This document shows, in pieces, positions 7,747 to 18,382 of a stretch of DNA of 64,000 nucleotides (positions within the stretch are counted from its first letter, which is position 1; the number at the start of each line of letters is the position of its first letter). Below the pieces are notes generated by a model. That model worked only from the letters and a program-made list of their open reading frames with translations, was not told where the DNA came from and did no database searches. The translations under genes were made by a program, and so were the position numbers. The stretch is taken from contig NZ_JBGUAZ010000001.1 in assembly GCF_041821085.1 (NCBI RefSeq), forward strand, positions 310,001-374,000, in the 5' to 3' direction. This DNA is from Natrinema sp. HArc-T2 (GTDB lineage: Archaea; Halobacteriota; Halobacteria; Halobacteriales; Natrialbaceae).

Positions 7747-8358
7747 ATGAGACGCAGGGAAATCGTGGCTGGGCTCGGCAGCGTCGGTGCCCTGGCCGGT
7801 GCAGGTGGGCTGCTCCTCGGGGGCGTTCCCTCGTTCGGAGCCGACAGCGGATCGGACAGCGACGATGGACCGCTTACCGTCGAAACGATCGACGCACGGG
7901 GAAGCGAGGCCGGCACGCTCACCGTTCCAAACGGCGATATCATGGTCCTCGAGTTCTTCGTCACCGGCTGTGGCAACTGTCAGACCCAAATGCCAAAGGT
8001 CGCAGAGGCGTACTCTCGGATCGCTACAGACCATGGCGACGAGGTGACGTTTCTCGGCGTCACCTTCCAATCTCCCGAAACCAAGCCGCCAGCAGAACTC
8101 CGAGAGTGGTGGCGCGCCCACGGCGGCAACTGGCCCGTCGGCTACGACCCGATGGGTGATATCGCGGCCAGCTACGGCTTCTCCAGCTATCCGACGACTA
8201 TCGTTACCGACGCGGACGGTGAGAAACACTGGGGAAAACTCGGCATTACGCAGCCGGACGTGATCGTCGACCACGTCGAATCCGTCCTCGAGACGAGCAG
8301 CGACGGGACGACGAACGCAGCTGCCGACTCCGACGCCGCCGAGTCGGCGTCCGACTGA
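7747..8358 (+). CDS. TlpA-like thioredoxin, Tat-exported
   Basis: 203 residues. The N-terminus carries a twin-arginine signal (RRREIVAG followed by a hydrophobic stretch to about residue 26), then a thioredoxin/TlpA domain with redox Cys75 and Cys78 in CGNC and a cis-proline in SYPTTIV. It should be a membrane-anchored or extracellular thiol-disulfide oxidoreductase, perhaps for cytochrome maturation or disulfide repair. The Asp/Ser-rich C-terminal tail is typical of haloarchaea. It is divergent from the LysE-type gene. Confidence 0.85.
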   Translation: MRRREIVAGLGSVGALAGAGGLLLGGVPSFGADSGSDSDDGPLTVETIDARGSEAGTLTVPNGDIMVLEFFVTGCGNCQTQMPKVAEAYSRIATDHGDEVTFLGVTFQSPETKPPAELREWWRAHGGNWPVGYDPMGDIAASYGFSSYPTTIVTDADGEKHWGKLGITQPDVIVDHVESVLETSSDGTTNAAADSDAAESASD

Positions 8359-8429: not shown

Positions 8430-11400
8430 CTACCCTTCTGCTGGTCCGTCTCCGAGCCCAGTAAGGAGGCCAGTGATCGACGCCGTCCACGACGACTGGT
8501 CGGCACCGAACGAAGTGAGTCCGGCTTCGTCTCCCAAACAGAGCTGACCGCTCGCGACGACGAGCGCCGGTTCCGCGCCGACTGTCTCTGGCGTGACCGT
8601 CCACCATCGAGAGCCGTCGGCAGTCGAGAGCGCGTGCAATTTCCCATCGGCGGTCCCCAGACAGACGGTGTCGCCGAGAACGACCGGCCCGCTTCCTGCC
8701 TGTCCGAGTGCGTCTCGCCAGCGTTCGCTTCCGGTACTGGCATCGATCGCATAGAGGCTGCCGTCCTCGCTGGCGACGTAGACGGACCCGTCCGCGACCG
8801 CCGGCGACGCCGAGAGTCGACCGCCAGTATCGAAGCGGAACTGCCGTTCACCGTCAGCGGCAGCCAGCACACACAGCGTGTCGCCACAACTTATCGCGAC
8901 CCTCCCGTCCGCGACCGCCGGCGGGCCGTGGATCGTCCCCTCGAGTTCGAGGTCTGTCTCCCAGCACTGGTCCCCATCGTCGGCTGCGAACGCGACGACG
9001 CGCTCGCTACAGGTGACGTAGATGACGCCATCGGCGACGGCGAGCCCGGCGATTCGATCGTCGACTGGCTCCATCCAGACCGTCTGGCCGGTCTCGGCGT
9101 CGATCGCGGTGAGTGCGTCGCCGCCGACGTAGACCGTTCCGTCGGCGACGATCGGCGGCGTTCGGACCGGCTCGTCCAGTGCGTGTCGCCAGCCGCGCTC
9201 GCCGGTGTCGGCCTCGAACGCCGAGACCACGGCATCGCGGGCGACGTAGACGGTGTCGTCGACGACCGCGGGCGTGGTTTCGATCGCGTCCATCTCGACG
9301 CGCCAGCGTTCGCTGCCGTCTGCGAGCGCCAGCGCGGCCACACCGTTCCCGTCGGCGACGAAGACGGTGTCGCCGACCAGCGCTGGTGGGGCCTCGACGT
9401 CGCCGGCGGTCTCGACGTGCCACTGGGCCGTCGGTCGGGGTCCGAGTGCGTCGCCCGCTGCGACGGCGTTCGTTCCTGCCGGCCCCGCACCCGCCATCGG
9501 CCAGTTGCGACCGTCGTCTTCGTCGTGGTCACGGACGTACTCGAGTCGCTCCGTTGCGGTCGTCGCCGCGCCCGATACCCCGGGAACCGGATCGGCAGTG
9601 AGCGGGCGAACGGCGGGGAGCGCGTCGACGGCATCGATCGCCGTCAGGGTCCGGAGGACGCGGGTCCGAACGCGCCCGTCGGGATCGGTGAGCCGCGGAC
9701 GCAGGTCGGTTGCGAGCCGATCTGCGTCGCCCTCGAGCGTTTCCGTCAGTTCGGCGATGTCGGCCAGTGTAGCCCCAGCCGTCGCACGAACGTCGGCGTC
9801 TGCATCCGACAGCGCCGCACACAGCTCGTCGGTCACCGCGTCGAAGCTGTCGGGATCGTCGGCAGCCATCGACGCCAGCGCTCGCCCGGCGGTGACGCGG
9901 ACGATCGGACTCTCGACGCCGAGGCCGGCTGCGATCTTCGAGATGCCCGTCGGACGCAACTGTGTTGACTCGTCTGCGAGGACCGACAGCGCGAGGACAG
10001 CCAGCCCGGCAGCCCACGGATTGCCCTCGAGTCGCCGCCCCATACCCGAGAGCTGTGTATTGATCTCGTCGGTGTGCGACGGCGTCTCGCCGCTGACGAG
10101 CGAGGCGGCTGCTCGCAGTCGCCCGTCGAAGTCCTCGAGTGTGTCTTTCACCGCTGCACCGTTGTCGTGGCCCGTCACGGCGAGCGTTCCGAGCGCCAGC
10201 GTCGCGTATCCACGGACAGCTTCGTCGTCGGTCTCGAGCAGTTCGACGAGTCGATCACGCGCTGCCGCCGCATCGTCGGGGGCAGCGCCAGCCAGTCGAG
10301 CGATTTCGCCAGCGATCGATCGACGGTCCGCCCCATCCGCGTCGAGTTCGTCGCACAGTCTCGCGGTCACGGGCTGTTCGTCGGTCTCCGCGACAGCCGT
10401 TGTCAGCGCACGCTCGAGCCCGCGTCGCTCGCGACCGTCCGCTGCTCGCAGTCGCCCGGCAAGCGGCGTCGCCGCAGCCGCGATCAGTTCTGGATTCATC
10501 CGGGCGACATCTGCAAGCGCCGTCGCGACAGCAGCCGCGCGCTCGTCGCCAGCCGACAGGACTGCCATGAGCGCCTCGAGCGGCGTCGGCTCAGTCTCGG
10601 CGTCGGATTCGAGGAGCGTTTCGAGCGTCTCGAGTGCCGCGGCACGGACGGTCGGCGCCGGCTCGACGAGCAGGTCACAGACGGCGACGACGGCAGCGTC
10701 GGCTTCGGTACCGGTCTCGAGGCCGAGAACGGACAGTCCCTCGCAGGCAGCGACGCGACGCGGCTCCGCGTCGGCCTCGGTTTCCGCGACGGCAAGCGCG
10801 ACCGTCGGTCGGCAGTCATCCGCTGTGTCGTCAGCAACCGCCGCGAGCGTCCGGCGGGCCGTCTCGCGGACGCTGTGATCGGCATCGTCGAGCGCGTCGA
10901 ACAGTCCCGCCCGCGCCGGGTCGATCGCGTCCGGATCCGTCGTCGCGATCCGCTCGAGGGCCAGCGCCGCGGTGTGGCGGACGTCTGCGTCGTCGTCCAA
11001 CAGCCGCTCGCCGAGTGCGTCGACGGCCACGCGGACCTCGTGAGGCCGCTCGGCGGCGATGGTCACTAGATCGCGGGCGGCCCCGAGCCGGACCGATACG
11101 TGCTCGTGGTCGAGTCGCCGACACAGCGAGCGAACCGCCGGATGGGGAGCCGCCGTCTGCGACATCGCGATCTCGACGAGCCTGCTGGCAGCGTAGCCAC
11201 GGACCCACTCGTCGTCGTCCTCGAGTTGCTCGATCAGTGCGGGGACGTTATCGTCGTCGCCGGGGTCCTCGCGAGCGATCGCGCCGACCGCCGCAGCCGC
11301 TCGGTGGCGGACCGGTTCGTGTGGATCGTCGAGACGGGCGGCGAGTTCGGGAACGACAGACCGGACGGAGGCCGGGTCGGTCGTCGAGACGGCAGCGATA

Positions 11401-12617
11401 GCCCGAACGGTCGCGAGTCGGATGGCTTCGTCTTCGACCGCGAGGGCGCTGGTGAGGTCGGCAACGACGGGAGCGACGGTCTCGGGAGCCACGTCGGCGA
11501 CGGCGGCGATGGTCGTCACGGCGTGGTTTCGAACCGGTTGGTCGTCGCGAGCCACCCGGCGAGCGAGGGTGTCGACGGCAGCAGTGACCGCGTCGGGCTG
11601 GTCGGTCGCGAGCGTCGCCAGCGTCGCAGCCGCGTCGGTCCGAACAGCCTCGTTGTCGTCGTCGAGCCGATCGACGAGCGTGTCGACGGCTGGCACGACC
11701 GCGTCAGGATCGTCCTCGGCGACCGCCCGGAGCGCACCGACGGTTTCCGTTCTCACGGCTGGCTCGTCAGCGAGGGTCGCAGCCAGCGCCTCGATGACTT
11801 CGCTGACCGGTTCGGGACGGGTCGCTGCGATGGCCGCGATCGCCGCCGCGGAATCGACGCGGACCGACTTCTGCTCGTCGGTCAGCCCCGTCGCGAGGGC
11901 GTCGACCGACGATGCAACCGCCGCCGGTCGATCGGTCGCAATCGCACACAGCGCCCGTGTTGTATGCTCGCGGACGGCTGGTTCGTCATCGAGATGGTCG
12001 ACGAGCCGGTCACGGGTCTCGAGGACGGCGTCTGGATCGGCCGCGGCAACAGCCGCGAGAATCGCCGCGGCGTTTTCCCGAACCGAGACGGCGTCGTCGT
12101 CGATCGCCGTCGTGATCTCGTCGGTCACCGGGATGACGGCTTCGGGATCGGTCGCGGCAATCGCAGCGAGCGCATCCGTCACTCGAGTCCGGACGTGTCG
12201 CTCGTCGTCTGTGACGGCAGCTGCGAGAGTCGTCGCCGAGTCTGCAACGACAGTCGGGTCGTCGACTGCAATCGAGGCGACCGCGTCGGCGACGTCCGTT
12301 CGGTTCGGGGTTGGCCCGTCGAGTCGCTCGAGCAGCGCCGGCACGCTCTCCTGTGTCGCTGCCGGGTAGACTGCTGCGACAGCCGACAGCGCCGCGGCTG
12401 CGTGAGATCTGACCGCCGGCTCGTCGGCGAGGCACTCGGTCAACGATGTCACCGCGGATCGGACATCCGCCGGTCGATCGGTCGCCTCCTCGGCCAGTGT
12501 ACGGGCTGCGTACTCCCGCACGTCGGGATCGTCAGCCGTCAGAAACGTCTCGAGTTGGTCGATACCGAGGGTGACTTCGAGCCCCTCTCCGGTCGTGATC
12601 TCATTGTGGTGTGACAT
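8430..12617 (-). CDS. Giant HEAT-repeat protein with C-terminal PQQ-type beta-propeller
   Basis: 1395 residues. The first two thirds or more are roughly two dozen HEAT-like helical repeats of about 37-40 residues with a recurring pattern of Asp-rich turn, VR, then AAxALAxIA. The last 340-350 residues are PQQ/Trp-type propeller blades, recognisable from repeats such as VADGxVYVA, AIDAxTG and ERWR. There is no signal peptide or membrane segment, so it is predicted cytosolic, which is unusual because PQQ-like propellers are mostly exported. It is probably a protein scaffold; I see no catalytic motif and no evidence for bound quinone. It is monocistronic. A TATA-like run (12668-12680) lies about 55 nt upstream of the ATG. 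Confidence 0.85.
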   Translation of the reverse strand: MSHHNEITTGEGLEVTLGIDQLETFLTADDPDVREYAARTLAEEATDRPADVRSAVTSLTECLADEPAVRSHAAAALSAVAAVYPAATQESVPALLERLDGPTPNRTDVADAVASIAVDDPTVVADSATTLAAAVTDDERHVRTRVTDALAAIAATDPEAVIPVTDEITTAIDDDAVSVRENAAAILAAVAAADPDAVLETRDRLVDHLDDEPAVREHTTRALCAIATDRPAAVASSVDALATGLTDEQKSVRVDSAAAIAAIAATRPEPVSEVIEALAATLADEPAVRTETVGALRAVAEDDPDAVVPAVDTLVDRLDDDNEAVRTDAAATLATLATDQPDAVTAAVDTLARRVARDDQPVRNHAVTTIAAVADVAPETVAPVVADLTSALAVEDEAIRLATVRAIAAVSTTDPASVRSVVPELAARLDDPHEPVRHRAAAAVGAIAREDPGDDDNVPALIEQLEDDDEWVRGYAASRLVEIAMSQTAAPHPAVRSLCRRLDHEHVSVRLGAARDLVTIAAERPHEVRVAVDALGERLLDDDADVRHTAALALERIATTDPDAIDPARAGLFDALDDADHSVRETARRTLAAVADDTADDCRPTVALAVAETEADAEPRRVAACEGLSVLGLETGTEADAAVVAVCDLLVEPAPTVRAAALETLETLLESDAETEPTPLEALMAVLSAGDERAAAVATALADVARMNPELIAAAATPLAGRLRAADGRERRGLERALTTAVAETDEQPVTARLCDELDADGADRRSIAGEIARLAGAAPDDAAAARDRLVELLETDDEAVRGYATLALGTLAVTGHDNGAAVKDTLEDFDGRLRAAASLVSGETPSHTDEINTQLSGMGRRLEGNPWAAGLAVLALSVLADESTQLRPTGISKIAAGLGVESPIVRVTAGRALASMAADDPDSFDAVTDELCAALSDADADVRATAGATLADIAELTETLEGDADRLATDLRPRLTDPDGRVRTRVLRTLTAIDAVDALPAVRPLTADPVPGVSGAATTATERLEYVRDHDEDDGRNWPMAGAGPAGTNAVAAGDALGPRPTAQWHVETAGDVEAPPALVGDTVFVADGNGVAALALADGSERWRVEMDAIETTPAVVDDTVYVARDAVVSAFEADTGERGWRHALDEPVRTPPIVADGTVYVGGDALTAIDAETGQTVWMEPVDDRIAGLAVADGVIYVTCSERVVAFAADDGDQCWETDLELEGTIHGPPAVADGRVAISCGDTLCVLAAADGERQFRFDTGGRLSASPAVADGSVYVASEDGSLYAIDASTGSERWRDALGQAGSGPVVLGDTVCLGTADGKLHALSTADGSRWWTVTPETVGAEPALVVASGQLCLGDEAGLTSFGADQSSWTASITGLLTGLGDGPAEG

Positions 12618-12934
12618 AGTCCGTCTCGTGACACGTGCGATCGCGAGCGACGCGATCTGGTCGAGAACGATACGTATAGAGACACACAGTTAATGGTATG
12701 CCCGGCACAGTCAGATCGACACGACGGTCGGCTGTCCCGTCTCGTCAGCCAGTAGTGACTGTCTCGACAATCCGACCAGCGGGTTGTGACGACCACGGGA
12801 ACGATATCCCGCTCGCGGTCCCATCAGGTGCAGGCCGGTTGCACAATGTCACTCACCACGATTGTTCTCATAAGCCGGTTTCACGACCGGACCGATCATG
12901 AGACGCAGCAGTCGACAACGGGGTGCTGAGACGA
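12618..12934. other. Divergent promoter region
   Basis: This stretch separates the HEAT-PQQ gene from the solute-binding protein gene. A TATA-like sequence for the minus-strand gene lies near 12668-12680. A 67-codon plus-strand frame (12698-12901) has no protein-like features and is not annotated. Confidence 0.45.
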
Positions 12935-14530
12935 ATGGACGACAGAACGAGCGAGGGACCGACAGGGCCGACGCGGCGTGACCTGCTCGCTGCGCTCGGC
13001 GGTGCGAGTACGGCGGCGGTGGCGGGCTGTTCGACGACGTTCGGGTCGGAGTCGGGATCGACGCTCCGCGTCGGGACGCTCCGCCCGCCGATTACGCTCG
13101 ACCCACTCACTGCGACGTCGATCGGCTCCGAGCAGGCAATCGGGCGCGTGTTCGATGGGCTCTACGAGTACGGCGAAGGGACCGAAATCGTGCCCGCGAT
13201 CGCTGCCGGCGACCCGCAGATCGAATCCGACGGCCAAACGGTCGTCGTCGAACTCGAGGAGAACGCGCGATTCCAGAACGGTCGCGCGGTAGTCGCCGAC
13301 GATGTGGTCTACTCGTTTACCGCACCGTTCGAGGAGGACGCACCCACAGCGTGGCGGGTGAGCCCGTTCGAGTCGGTCACGGCCGTCGACGAGCGCACGG
13401 TTCGCTTTTCGCTCGCAGACCCGTATCCGGCGCTCGAGGACGCGCTCACCCTCCCGATCGTCCCTCGGCAGGAGCGAGAAGCCGACCGGGAAGCGTTCGC
13501 CACCGACCCAATCGGCGCTGGCTCGTTCGAGGTGGCGTCGTTCAGCGAGGAGAAAAAGGCGACACTGCGCCGCTGGGACGACTACTGGGACGAGCCGACA
13601 CCCGAAATCGATCGGCTCACGATGGCGTACGTCGAGTTCCCGATAACCCAGCTGACGAGCCTCCGGACGAATCGTAATGAGGCGATCGAGCCAGTGTCGC
13701 CGCTGACCGTCGACCACGTCGACGAAGTGACGAACGCGTCGGTGAAACGCAAGCAGGGCTACACCTGGTTTTACTTCGGGTTCAATCTGAACGAGGGGCC
13801 GACGACCGACCGGCGAGTGCGGGAGGCGATCAGCTACTGCATCGACCTCGAGCAAGCTGTCGCCGAGTTCATCGAGCCGGTGGGACAGCGCCAGTACGGC
13901 CCGCTGCCACCGCAGGTCGCCCGCGACTGGAACATGCCGACCGAGGAGTGGGCAGCACTCGCGAATCCGAAAGACACCGACCGGGCCAACCAGCTATTCA
14001 GCGAGACGGGGTTGGTACCCGGACAGATTCGTATCCTGACGTCGATGGACCCGAAACACAAAGAGCTCGGCGAGGCACTGGCCGGCGGCCTGCGGGACGC
14101 CGGTCGCGGCGCGCTCGTCGTCTCGAAACCCGAGTCAGCCTTCCTCGAGACGTACGTCTCCGGCTCCGAGCACGACTACTCGGTGTTCGTCGGCGAGGTC
14201 AGCGGGACGCCCGATCCGGACACACACCTCTATCCGACGTTCCACGAGAACATGGCCGGGGTGACGAACGGGACCTTCTATCGCGAAGACGCGGTTATGG
14301 AGCGGCTCGCAGCGGCTCGCCACACGCGAGAACGCGAGCAGCGACGACGCCGTTATGAGGGGGCGATCACGAGGCTCCTCGAGGATCGGGTCTGTCTGCC
14401 GATCTGCTCGTTCGAGAATAGCTTCGCCGTGGCCCCGGACGTCGAGCAGTTCCGTGTCCATCCGATCGCACAGGTAAACCCGCGGCTCGCAGCAGGAGAG
14501 ACCGTCGTGACGATGGGAGGTGACGCATGA
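12935..14530 (+). CDS. Family 5 extracellular solute-binding lipoprotein (Dpp/Opp type)
   Basis: 531 residues. The N-terminus is a twin-arginine signal (TRRDLLAALGG) with lipobox AVAGC, so the mature protein is lipid-anchored outside the cell. The body matches the peptide/nickel-type SBP family 5, with the typical ITLDPLTATS, VFDGLYEY and FQNGRAVVADDVVYS segments and FYFGFNLN near the middle. Such proteins normally feed an ABC transporter, but no permease or ATPase gene is adjacent. Instead its TGA overlaps the ATG of an APC permease (ATGA at 14527-14530). The ATG at 12935 is chosen over the GTG at 12923 as it gives a compact signal peptide. Confidence 0.87.
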   Translation: MDDRTSEGPTGPTRRDLLAALGGASTAAVAGCSTTFGSESGSTLRVGTLRPPITLDPLTATSIGSEQAIGRVFDGLYEYGEGTEIVPAIAAGDPQIESDGQTVVVELEENARFQNGRAVVADDVVYSFTAPFEEDAPTAWRVSPFESVTAVDERTVRFSLADPYPALEDALTLPIVPRQEREADREAFATDPIGAGSFEVASFSEEKKATLRRWDDYWDEPTPEIDRLTMAYVEFPITQLTSLRTNRNEAIEPVSPLTVDHVDEVTNASVKRKQGYTWFYFGFNLNEGPTTDRRVREAISYCIDLEQAVAEFIEPVGQRQYGPLPPQVARDWNMPTEEWAALANPKDTDRANQLFSETGLVPGQIRILTSMDPKHKELGEALAGGLRDAGRGALVVSKPESAFLETYVSGSEHDYSVFVGEVSGTPDPDTHLYPTFHENMAGVTNGTFYREDAVMERLAAARHTREREQRRRRYEGAITRLLEDRVCLPICSFENSFAVAPDVEQFRVHPIAQVNPRLAAGETVVTMGGDA

Positions 14531-15852
14531 GCGATAACGATGGTGACGGCTTCGGCGTCCCAACGGTCGTCGCGCTCGGCGTGGGTGGTATCGTCGGCGG
14601 CGGCATCTACGCGGCGATTGGTATCGTCGTGGCCGCGGCGGGTATCCTGACGTGGTTCGCCTACTCGCTGGCGACCGTCGTCGTTTTCTGCTGTGCCTAC
14701 TCCTACATCAAGCTCAACGACGTGACCGAGAGAAGCGGCGGGTCGGTTTCGTACATCGAGGAGTTGACGGGGTGATCGACTGTGGCCGGCGTCGTCGGCT
14801 GGACGCTCATTGTCGGCTACATCGGAACGATAGCGATGTACGCCTACGCGTTCGGGATGTACGGCCAGATGCTCATCGGCTACGAATACGTCTGGGGACT
14901 GCCGATCCGCCAGTTCATCTCGGTCGGCATCGTCGCCGCCTTCGTCGGATTGAATCTGCTCGGTGCCGGCTCGTCGGCGGCGGTCGAACGCTATCTCGTC
15001 TTTATCCAAGCGGGAATCATCGCTGCCTTCGGCCTGATCGGCCTGTGGTTCGGTGCGGCGAACTATCAACTACGGCTTGGCTTCGCAGAACTCGGGCTCA
15101 ATCCAATCATCGCCGCTTCGGTCGGCTTCGTCTCGTTTGAGGGCTGGCAACTCCTGTTCTACGATCAGGAACAGTTCGACGATCCCAATGCAACGCTCGC
15201 GAAGGGCGTGTTCATCTCGATCCCGATCGCGGCGGCTATCTACATCCTCGTCGGGTTCGTAATCACGACGCTGTTGCCCGAGGAAGTGATCGCTGCCCAG
15301 CCCGAACCGGCGCTGCTCTATGGCGCGCTCGCGATCTCGAAATGGGCCATGCTCGCGATTGGGATCGCCGGCCTCGTCTCGACGGCGAGTGCGATCAACT
15401 CGACGATGTTTAGCGAGGCGCTGTTCGCGAAGAACCTGATCAGCGACGACATTCTCCCCGACGAGATGGGGGACACGGACGTCGATGCTGCGCCGACACG
15501 GACCGTGCTCGTCATCGGCACCCTGACGGCTGCGTTCACCGCTCTCGGGAGCCTCGAGGCCGTCGTGGAGTTTGCTTCGCTGGCTTTCATCCTCGTCTTC
15601 GGTACGATGAGCGCGCTGGCGCTGACGATCCGCGACGCAGACGATGTCGATGTCAATCCCATCCCACCGCTACTCGGGCTCGTCGGCTCGGCAGCCTTCT
15701 TCGTCATGCTGACGTGGTATCTCTACTCGCAGCTCCCCGCCGTGTTCTGGCTGGTCGTCGTCATCGCGGCGGTCGTGTTCACGGTCGAAGCGCTGTATTT
15801 CAAACGCCAGCGACTCTCCGAAGGCGTTCGTCAGGTGGAAAAGCGGGTCTGA
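14527..15852 (+). pseudogene. APC-superfamily amino acid permease interrupted by in-frame TGA
   Basis: Two reading frames in the same phase (14527-14775 and onward to 15852) together encode about 440 residues of an APC-family permease with around 12 membrane segments. The first half-segment shows GVGGIVGGGIYAAIG, the family signature of helix 1. They are separated only by TGA at 14773-14775; sequence on both sides is intact and continuous (EELTG, stop, STVAGVVGW). CGA to TGA is the simplest single change. A GTG at 14782 could restart translation but would lack helices 1 and 2. The gene may be a young pseudogene, a sequencing error or a readthrough case. It is translationally coupled to the SBP gene; topA ends 2 bp beyond its stop on the other strand. 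Confidence 0.82.
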
Positions 15853-15853
15853 C

Positions 15854-18382
15854 CTACGCCTTTGCCTGCCAGCTTCGGACGCGATCGGCGCTAACGCCGT
15901 CGACGTCCTCGGCGACCGCGTCGGGATCGGCCTCGGTCAGATCAGCGAGATCCTCGATCCCCGCGTCGGCGAGTTTCTCGACGGTCTTAGCACCGATTCC
16001 ATCGAGTGACTCGAGGTCAGAGCCCGACTCGCTCTCGCGGGCCTGGAACTCCTGGTAGTTACAGATCGGACAGCCAAGTTCCCAGGGTTCGTCGCCGCTG
16101 TGGACGACGAGTTCAGGCAGGTCGTGTTCGTCGCAGTGCTCGTCGGTGACCTCGATCTCGCCGCGGCGGGGCAGCGGCAGCGAGTACTCACAGTCGGGAT
16201 AGCGCGTACAGCCGACGAGCCGCGAGCCGCTTTGCAGTGTTTTGATCGCTAACTCGCCGCCTTCTTCGGCGGTTTCACCGCCTTCGTCTCGCGACGACTC
16301 CGTCGTCGCGCTGTCCTCACCGCATTCCGGACAGTCACCGATAATCGGGCCCTCGCCAGCATCTTCGGCCTTACAGAGCGGACAGCCGTGGACGAACGTC
16401 TGCCGACCCGCGAGCATCTTGACCTCGTGTAAGCCGTGCTCGTCACACTCCGATTCCATGATCAGCGGCTTACCCGTCGACGGCAGCGGCAGCGTGAACT
16501 CACAGTCGGGGTAGCCGTCACAGCCGACAAAATACGACCCGTGACGGCTCCGACGGACGAGCAGGTCCTCGCCACATTCTGGACACGGCCCCAGTCGCTT
16601 GTCGTCTTTCAGCGACTTGCGAAGCTGGTCGCCGATCTCGTCGCGTGACTCCGCGAGATTGGCGAAGATCTCCTCGAGCATCTCGCGGGATTCGTCGGTG
16701 ACGTCGTCGAGGGTCGCTTCACCCGAGGCGATGGCGTCCATGTCGGCCTCGAGCTGGGCGGTCATCTCCTCGCTGACGACGCGGTCGGCGTAGTCTTCGG
16801 CGGCCTCGACGACGGCCATCGCGAGCCGGGTCGGGCGCGGCGGATCGCTCTCGACGTAGCCACGATCGTACAGCTTCTCTAAGATGTCGTGGCGGGTCGA
16901 TTTCGTCCCGATCCCCAGGTCTTCCATGGTCTCGATGAGCCGCGACTGGCCGTATCGACGCGGCGGCTGGGTCTCTTTGGCCTCGAGTTCGACATCCGAC
17001 AGCGCCAACTCCTCGCCTTCGTCGACGTCGGGGACGTAGTTCTCGCTCGTGCTGAAATAGGGGTAGACATCGTGGTAACCGGGCTCGACCAGACGCTTGC
17101 CGTTAGCCTTGAGCCGGTAGTCGTCGACCTCAGCGACGACTTTGAGGTGTTCCCAGACCGCGGCGTCGGCGACGGTCGCGAAAAAGCGCCGAACGACGAG
17201 TTCGAAGATCTCCCACTCGTCGTCGGAGATGTCTCCCCGGGCAGGGATCTCGCCAGTTGGATGGATCGGCGGGTGGTCGGTCGTCTCCTCGTCGCCTTCG
17301 GTTGCACTGATCTCGTCGGCCTCGAGCAGCGACTCGGCTGCCTCACCTAACGTATTGTGACCGACGAAGTCGTCGAGCAGTTCCTGGGGATCGAGATCGT
17401 CGGGGTAGACGGTGTTGTCCGTCCGCGGGTAGGTGATGTAGCCGGCGGTGTAGAGGTCCTCGGCGATCGACATCGCGCGCTTGGCCGAGTAGCCGAGCGC
17501 GCTGGCCGCGCGGATGAACTGAGTCGTGTTGAACGGCGTCGGCGGCGTGTCGGTCCGCGTTCGCCGATTGACGTCGACGACCGTCGCGGCACCGCGCTCG
17601 GCAAGCGTTTCGTAGACCTCGTCGGCAACGGCTTCCTCCCAGACGCGTTCGGCCTCGTTGTCGTCCTCGTCGCGGTAGAAGTACTGGGCCTCGAAGGTCG
17701 TGTCATCCTTGGCGAGGTCGGCGAACAGCTCCCAGTAGTCCTCGGGATCGAAGGCCTCGATCTCGCGCTCGCGATCGACGATCAACTTCAGCGTTGGCGA
17801 CTGCACCCGGCCAACCGAAATGAAATCCTCGCCGAGTTGCCCGGCGGACAGCGAGAGAAAGCGCGTGAGCGCGGCCCCCCAGATCAGGTCGATGATCTGG
17901 CGGGCCTCGCCGGCAGCCGCCAGATCGAAATCGAGGTCGTCGGGCTCGTCGAACGCCCCCTGGACCTCGTTTTCCGTGATCGAAGAGAACCGCACCCGGC
18001 GAATGGGGACTTCCTCGTCGACCTCGCGGACGATGTCGTAGGCCTCCTTGCCGATCAGTTCCCCTTCGCGGTCGTAGTCGGTCGCGATCGTCACGCGTTC
18101 GGCGCGACGGGCCAACAGTCGCAGCGTCGCCACGATGTTCTCTTTCGTCGGCGTCTTCTCGACGCTCGCGTCGATCAACTCGACGGGCTCGACGTCTCGC
18201 CAGTCGGAGTACTCCGACGGGAAGTCTACGCCAACGACGTGGCCCGACAGCCCCACGCAGCGCTTGCCGCCCCACTCGTAGACGTTTACTCCGTTCTCGC
18301 GACTCGAGTCGTAGGTCCCCCCGCTCAGAATGTCGGCGATCCGGCGGGCCGCGTTGTCCTTCTCGGTGATTATCAGTTCCAC
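15854..18382 (-). CDS. topA: DNA topoisomerase I (type IA)
   Basis: 842 residues. It relaxes negative supercoils by breaking one DNA strand. The Toprim domain opens the protein (ITEKDNAARR; acidic TDYDREGE at 101-108), the catalytic tyrosine is Tyr318 in GYITYPRTD, and the C-terminus carries several Cys4-type zinc ribbons (CPECGEDL, CPLCK, CPECGED, CPICN) followed by a helix-hairpin-helix ending (LDGIGAKTVEKLADAG). The GTG at 18382 starts directly on the Toprim strand; a longer frame up to 18580 adds arginine/serine-rich sequence that is not protein-like. Confidence 0.95.
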   Translation of the reverse strand: MELIITEKDNAARRIADILSGGTYDSSRENGVNVYEWGGKRCVGLSGHVVGVDFPSEYSDWRDVEPVELIDASVEKTPTKENIVATLRLLARRAERVTIATDYDREGELIGKEAYDIVREVDEEVPIRRVRFSSITENEVQGAFDEPDDLDFDLAAAGEARQIIDLIWGAALTRFLSLSAGQLGEDFISVGRVQSPTLKLIVDREREIEAFDPEDYWELFADLAKDDTTFEAQYFYRDEDDNEAERVWEEAVADEVYETLAERGAATVVDVNRRTRTDTPPTPFNTTQFIRAASALGYSAKRAMSIAEDLYTAGYITYPRTDNTVYPDDLDPQELLDDFVGHNTLGEAAESLLEADEISATEGDEETTDHPPIHPTGEIPARGDISDDEWEIFELVVRRFFATVADAAVWEHLKVVAEVDDYRLKANGKRLVEPGYHDVYPYFSTSENYVPDVDEGEELALSDVELEAKETQPPRRYGQSRLIETMEDLGIGTKSTRHDILEKLYDRGYVESDPPRPTRLAMAVVEAAEDYADRVVSEEMTAQLEADMDAIASGEATLDDVTDESREMLEEIFANLAESRDEIGDQLRKSLKDDKRLGPCPECGEDLLVRRSRHGSYFVGCDGYPDCEFTLPLPSTGKPLIMESECDEHGLHEVKMLAGRQTFVHGCPLCKAEDAGEGPIIGDCPECGEDSATTESSRDEGGETAEEGGELAIKTLQSGSRLVGCTRYPDCEYSLPLPRRGEIEVTDEHCDEHDLPELVVHSGDEPWELGCPICNYQEFQARESESGSDLESLDGIGAKTVEKLADAGIEDLADLTEADPDAVAEDVDGVSADRVRSWQAKA

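Follow-up and report, generated by a model that had tools for sequence, protein, structure and literature searches.

Large scaffolds in which a solenoid is paired with a propeller are familiar mainly from the signalling and coat complexes of eukaryotes. Here, two proteins of this layout, Vps15 and Raptor, are compared with a protein encoded in a stretch of 64,000 nucleotides from Natrinema sp. HArc-T2 (contig NZ_JBGUAZ010000001.1, positions 310,001 to 374,000; hereafter the window). In this protein of 1395 residues, an array of HEAT repeats is followed by a beta-propeller of the pyrroloquinoline quinone (PQQ) type. We conclude that the HEAT-PQQ protein represents a real, conserved, uncharacterised and lineage-restricted family of its own.

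Vps15 scaffolds the class III PI3-kinase complex PI3KC3 and combines HEAT repeats, a disordered linker of 180 residues and a C-terminal WD40 propeller (PMC4281882). Raptor has an armadillo (ARM) solenoid and then a WD40 propeller, and recruits substrates and partners (PMC7464330). Among haloarchaeal multi-domain proteins, the Halo_adaptin ESCRT proteins carry WD40/PQQ-like propellers, for which cargo binding has been proposed (PMC10936438). Kaur et al. described MoxR-vWA ternary systems, in which the vWA component bears fused propellers, and repeats of the HEAT and propeller types serve as scaffolding (PMC7159879); a MoxR-vWA module has been reported for all genomes of hypha-forming haloarchaea (PMC10067837).

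Architecture and comparison with known proteins

The Pfam scan of the HEAT-PQQ protein gave matches to HEAT_2 (3e-38), HEAT_EZ (1e-32) and PQQ_2 (PF13360, 1.2e-62), all well over the cut-off. AlphaFold modelling with 27 orthologues yielded two models that together span the protein (residues 1-520 and 500-1395). The first is helical throughout, with 13 helix pairs starting at residue 31 and a mean predicted local distance difference test (pLDDT) of 90. The second (pLDDT 86, predicted template modelling score (pTM) 0.61) contains about 14 further helix pairs ending at residue 1031, a disordered linker of 25 residues and a propeller of eight four-stranded blades, the last of which is completed by the first strand (residues 1063-1068). 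The architecture is directly supported by these data. The first-pass annotation had counted about two dozen HEAT repeats followed by a propeller; with about 27 helix pairs this count was right or slightly low, and the propeller is seen both in the model and in Pfam.

The N-terminal solenoid matched the peptide-binding ARM proteins Vac8, beta-catenin and importin-alpha (Z 25-27, root-mean-square deviation mostly 4-7 Å). The propeller, whose fold neighbours were also sought with Foldseek, matched Rv3035, YxaL, tetrathionate hydrolase and BamB (Z 33-39, ~2-2.6 Å, ~310-327 residues). No single chain matching both modules was present among the structure matches listed, the second list being filled by propeller matches. 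In NCBIfam, only DVU0298_fam (an equivalog_domain model) reached its cut-off, matching ten stretches that we read as HEAT-type repeat. The Pfam, NCBIfam and PADLOC scans revealed no catalytic domain, and neither these scans nor the literature searched yielded a whole-protein family or a description of HEAT repeats with a PQQ/BamB-type propeller but without a kinase or caspase-like head.

The order of HEAT repeats, disordered linker and C-terminal propeller is common to the HEAT-PQQ protein and Vps15 (p150), and a solenoid block followed by a C-terminal propeller is also found in Raptor of mTORC1. The earlier statement that no characterised protein has such an architecture was too strong, since in both an alpha-solenoid precedes a propeller. 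Vps15, however, is eukaryotic and possesses an N-terminal kinase domain and a WD40 propeller, whereas the propeller described here is of the PQQ type, and no Pkinase match was obtained in the Pfam scan. Because this defining domain is absent, the HEAT-PQQ protein is not classed as Vps15; it appears most like the HEAT-linker-propeller part of that protein, and the likeness shown is one of layout only. Raptor differs by its N-terminal caspase-like domain and WD40 propeller; the HEAT-PQQ protein has no such Pfam family, and its HEAT repeats begin at about residue 19-31.

BamB (YfgL) and YxaL share the eight-bladed PQQ_2-type propeller (Z 33-38), but neither has a HEAT array, BamB being a stand-alone outer-membrane lipoprotein and YxaL a factor of Bacillus velezensis that promotes plant growth. 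A BamB function was rejected, as the NCBIfam model TIGR03300 scored 180.6 bits against a cut-off of 285.2 and no lipoprotein signal was visible. The same modules, HEAT or PQQ, recur in AfsK-type proteins and in the PQQ-kinases and HEAT-kinases of haloarchaea, but these carry a protein kinase domain, which the HEAT-PQQ protein lacks; the model of AfsK-type quinoprotein kinases (NF053615) gave 91 bits against a cut-off of 1300. Halo_adaptin proteins have an N-terminal propeller and IG-like domains and are encoded in Vps4/ESCRT loci, whereas here the propeller is C-terminal and no IG-like domain was found.

Two other candidates were set aside. The OloA profile of PADLOC scored 45.8 bits (PADLOC gives no cut-off), its best stretch covering 145 of 596 positions and HEAT repeats only; a defence gene was set aside on this partial match, with no search made for a partner gene. 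An exported surface PQQ protein was set aside for want of a signal. On inspection, with no signal-peptide program run, the N-terminus (MSHHNEITTGEGLEVTLGIDQLETFL) contains no hydrophobic stretch and no twin arginine, and the orthologues are alike, in agreement with the first-pass annotation, which had noted no export signal. The protein is therefore apparently cytosolic. Its composition is acidic (D+E 18%, K+R 8%).

Conservation and distribution of the family

The Natrialbaceae genomes were searched using an alignment as the query, since a single-protein query matched nothing, its peptide patterns being unconserved. Matches at E < 1e-60 were obtained in 35 of 121 sampled genomes and 7 of 29 genera, a few being only partial. 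Genera of Natrialbaceae with full-length orthologues include Natrinema, Haloterrigena (sp. H1), Natronolimnohabitans and Natronosalvus; across 26 orthologues (41-82% identity) the HEAT array, propeller and tail are collinear, which places the window protein in this family. No full-length match was found outside Natrialbaceae in the 293 Halobacteriales genomes searched, where only a few candidates per genome were scored with such long models, so that absence elsewhere is not proof. The viral contigs searched contained no relative. A profile of the junction (last HEAT repeats and first blades) revealed one clear additional fusion, in the genome G018. Other matches in the window genome, which also encodes a 391-aa HEAT protein, cover one module or piece only and are mostly PQQ propellers.

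The ratio of nonsynonymous to synonymous substitution rates (dN/dS) against two close orthologues was 0.30 and 0.34, which argues that the gene is under purifying selection. Since full-length orthologues are present in many genomes and dN/dS is about 0.30-0.34, the open reading frame (ORF) on the minus strand is more than a product of chance and is a real coding frame.

Three regions are conserved most strongly: the N-terminal cap, residues 841-900 and one part of the propeller. Column entropy is ~0.75-1.1 bits over residues 1-118, compared with a typical 1.3; in blocks of 30 residues the minima fall at 31-60, 1261-1290 and 871-900, and the surroundings of the linker and some blades reach the highest values. 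The motif of the tail is recognisable across nearly all orthologues, and its short helix is a candidate docking or membrane-contact peptide. A relative in G053 (L162:3923-7162, minus strand) aligns over the entire HEAT part, stops at the junction and has no propeller; judged by eye, its end (DDSWFARLSPWRVLDSIRE) is similar to the tail that closes the full-length proteins.

The gene has diverged far more rapidly than its neighbour topA: in the nearest relative, identity is 82% for the HEAT-PQQ protein and 97% for topA. The gene tree broadly tracks genera, and presence and absence on the topA tree amount to 4 changes over 27 rows. Where relatives lack the gene, its neighbours are retained around a clean gap; at one empty site (L084) the TlpA and solute-binding protein genes lie ~405 bp apart, and at another (L086) topA is followed directly by the TlpA gene. 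Inheritance thus looks mostly vertical, with frequent loss and fast evolution, and the gene is judged non-essential because close relatives are cleanly devoid of it.

A two-module scaffold and its alternatives

The reading we favour, at about even confidence, is that the HEAT-PQQ protein is a cytosolic two-module scaffold or adaptor. We infer this from the architecture seen in Pfam and the models, the lack of a catalytic domain, purifying selection, conservation in patches, mostly vertically inherited orthologues and the layout of Vps15 and Raptor. One set of partner proteins or peptides would bind in the groove of the solenoid and at the N-terminal cap, and the rim of the propeller and the tail would engage a further partner or a membrane surface; the linker would allow the propeller to swing. 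The protein could thereby bridge two sets of partners, or a partner and a membrane. The proposed binding sites are the conserved cap, the conserved patch at residues 841-900 and the propeller.

The position of the conservation peaks, in patches and not in the linker, fits a partner-binding scaffold, and BamB, one of the propeller matches, is itself a subunit of a complex. The empty sites in relatives were also counted in favour. The earlier suggestion that the protein could organise a large complex is plausible. Several points weigh against the scaffold: it has no known partner, and topA is the sole conserved neighbour (~140-410 bp); the pTM of the second model leaves the relative placement of solenoid and propeller uncertain; the matches of both modules are generic folds and prove neither binding nor function; and the cytosolic location rests solely on the lack of a visible signal.

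The alternative ranking second, which we regard as doubtful, is that the HEAT-PQQ protein belongs to a haloarchaeal modular repertoire of MoxR ATPases, vWA proteins and Ser/Thr kinases, acting in complex remodelling or conflict, with its partners encoded elsewhere. The G018 protein (L094:4203-10037, minus strand; 1821-1945 aa) is a remote protein from another haloarchaeal family with the same layout, showing 30% identity to the window protein over 498 alignment columns, which cover the late HEAT array and the propeller across the junction. It is longer, however, and ends at the propeller without the conserved tail. Its gene lies 127 bp upstream of genes for a MoxR-type AAA protein (AAA_5 match; bpMoxR weak, under cut-off) and a CoxE-like vWA protein on the same strand. 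A second HEAT-like protein (1490 aa) and a vWA-like ORF, both read from the sequence, are encoded nearby, and a second PF07726 match lies further along.

Similarly, on plasmids of Halomicrobium sp. LC1Hm, Halorubrum sp. BOL3-1 and Natribaculum luteum, MoxR and vWA genes adjoin a gene for a protein of ~1490-1530 aa, which is HEAT where identified: the Halomicrobium protein is annotated as such, that of Natribaculum matches the G018 HEAT array (26% over 1191 aa), and that of Halorubrum aligns with its Halomicrobium counterpart. The literature searched holds no description of haloarchaeal MoxR-vWA genes beside giant HEAT proteins; HEAT and propeller repeats are counted among the parts of MoxR-vWA systems (PMC7159879). 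HEAT-kinase and PQQ-kinase fusions exist in haloarchaea, the former on Halomicrobium and Halarchaeum plasmids, and, starting at the N-terminus, the HEAT array of the window protein can be aligned with the Halarchaeum HEAT-kinase (28% over 631 aa, E 1e-36), whereas controls made by shuffling or reversal stay at E > 0.4. A rotated control nevertheless aligns at E 3e-26, so that much of this likeness is repeat pattern.

Meanwhile, the locus itself argues against such a membership. Clustering of the neighbouring ORFs at the orthologous loci examined, which were annotated in part, brought no MoxR, vWA or kinase gene to light. The adjacent MoxR AAA and vWA genes that define a ternary system (PMC7159879) are absent from the window locus, where the G018 MoxR and vWA proteins had no tblastn match within the 64 kb; the single PF07726 match of the window genome is on another contig. 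The gene also occupies a stable chromosomal site, not a plasmid island, and common ancestry of the G018 and window propellers was neither shown nor rejected by the approximately unbiased (AU) test (p 0.547).

It should be noted that plasmid islands of Halomicrobium and Halarchaeum (L155, L021, L022) are rich in Ser/Thr kinases and contain HEAT-kinase fusions and a PQQ-matching kinase; L155 and L022 also contain cpn60-family and restriction-endonuclease genes. MoxR-vWA genes stand beside a HEAT or other protein of ~1490-1945 aa in L156, L158, L159 and L094/L134 (G018).

A weaker alternative, quite unlikely in our view, is a DNA-topology or chromosome factor tied to topoisomerase I, that is, a condensin-like HEAT accessory. 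The synteny on which it draws is directly supported: across the genera examined, most orthologous loci have topA directly upstream in the same orientation, the other flanks being variable, and Pfam condensin and PDS5 models score on the protein. These scores, like that of adaptin, are generic to HEAT repeats, however. The spacing of ~140-410 bp, the conservation of the gene's own leader among close orthologues, the gene pair inserted in this lineage and a distance of 26 kb in G104 all speak against the link, as does the presence of topA in 23 of 23 genomes searched for it, most of them without the HEAT-PQQ gene. The topA genes of two Natrinema relatives are interrupted: that of G008 (L160:1820-3409) by an in-frame insert of 530 aa with a LAGLIDADG match and an intein-splicing match just below cut-off, an apparent intein, and that of G003 is split likewise.

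The least likely of the readings listed, and a most improbable one, is that the propeller acts as an enzyme or sensor domain binding PQQ: it belongs to PF13360/PF01011 and resembles quinoprotein models, but these fall far short of the cut-off (55.1 against 480.05 bits for the PQQ-dependent alcohol dehydrogenase model TIGR03075, on which a quinoprotein enzyme was set aside), and its structural neighbours include BamB and YxaL besides the enzyme tetrathionate hydrolase.

The locus and the wider meaning of the family

The gene is probably transcribed alone, because a TlpA-like gene converges on it from one side and a solute-binding protein gene diverges from it on the other; the first-pass annotation had likewise placed it alone in its transcript, and both neighbours in the window are indeed on the opposite strand. 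The 120 bp preceding the start contain a TATA-like sequence and are nearly identical among the three closest orthologues, which is consistent with a promoter of its own. Two inserted genes part it from topA, which lies upstream on the same strand.

Table 1. Features of the HEAT-PQQ gene and its surroundings in the window.
Feature	Position	Strand	Description and basis
HEAT-PQQ protein gene	8430..12617	-	1395 aa; ATG at 12617, stop 8430-8432; ORF reading, Pfam, orthologues
N-terminal cap, most conserved stretch	12264..12617	-	residues 1-118; motif EVT[LV]GIDxLExFL and first HEAT repeats
HEAT/ARM-type alpha-solenoid, ~27 helix pairs	9525..12563	-	residues 19-1031; Pfam, models, fold match
Conserved patch, late HEAT array	9954..10106	-	residues 838-888; SLVSGETPS..DEI..QLSG...PWAAGLAVLALSVLADES; orthologue alignment
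Linker, variable, low confidence	9450..9524	-	residues 1032-1056; pLDDT ~31-44; entropy among the protein's highest
Eight-bladed PQQ/BamB-type beta-propeller	8505..9431	-	residues 1063-1371; PF13360 1.2e-62, model, fold matches
Short C-terminal helix in conserved tail	8457..8489	-	residues 1377-1387; SSWxxSI(S/T)GLhTxhG; 27-orthologue alignment; low-confidence helix
5' leader and promoter-like region, conserved	12618..12740	-	CCATTAACTG, TATACGTA; alignment; three close orthologues nearly identical
TlpA/AhpC-type thioredoxin-like gene	7747..8358	+	convergent, downstream of HEAT-PQQ; ORF list, Pfam
Solute-binding protein family 5 gene	12923-14530	+	PF00496; divergent to the HEAT-PQQ gene
APC-like permease	14782-15852	+	assignment from the sequence reading alone
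Solute-binding and permease gene pair	12923..15852	+	separates topA from HEAT-PQQ in this lineage
topA (DNA topoisomerase I)	15854..18382	-	named by reading of the sequence, without family scan

In another locus (L083:13554-17552, minus strand), a gene for an Eco57I-type restriction-modification methylase (1333 aa, PF07669) lies near the HEAT-PQQ gene; this methylase cluster is also present in L056, that is, in two Natrinema genomes in all.

It is unlikely that the HEAT-PQQ protein is a haloarchaeal counterpart of Vps15- and Raptor-like scaffolds that assembles with MoxR-vWA machines or Ser/Thr kinases encoded elsewhere; if it were, this scaffold layout would have arisen in archaea as well, for signalling or conflict complexes. 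The MoxR-vWA genes beside giant HEAT proteins, together with the HEAT-kinase and PQQ-kinase fusions, point to a modular complex-building repertoire in haloarchaea. As a conserved archaeal solenoid-propeller protein of culturable haloarchaea, including Natrinema, that is cleanly absent in sister species, the HEAT-PQQ protein would offer a tractable case for the study of scaffold function in archaea.

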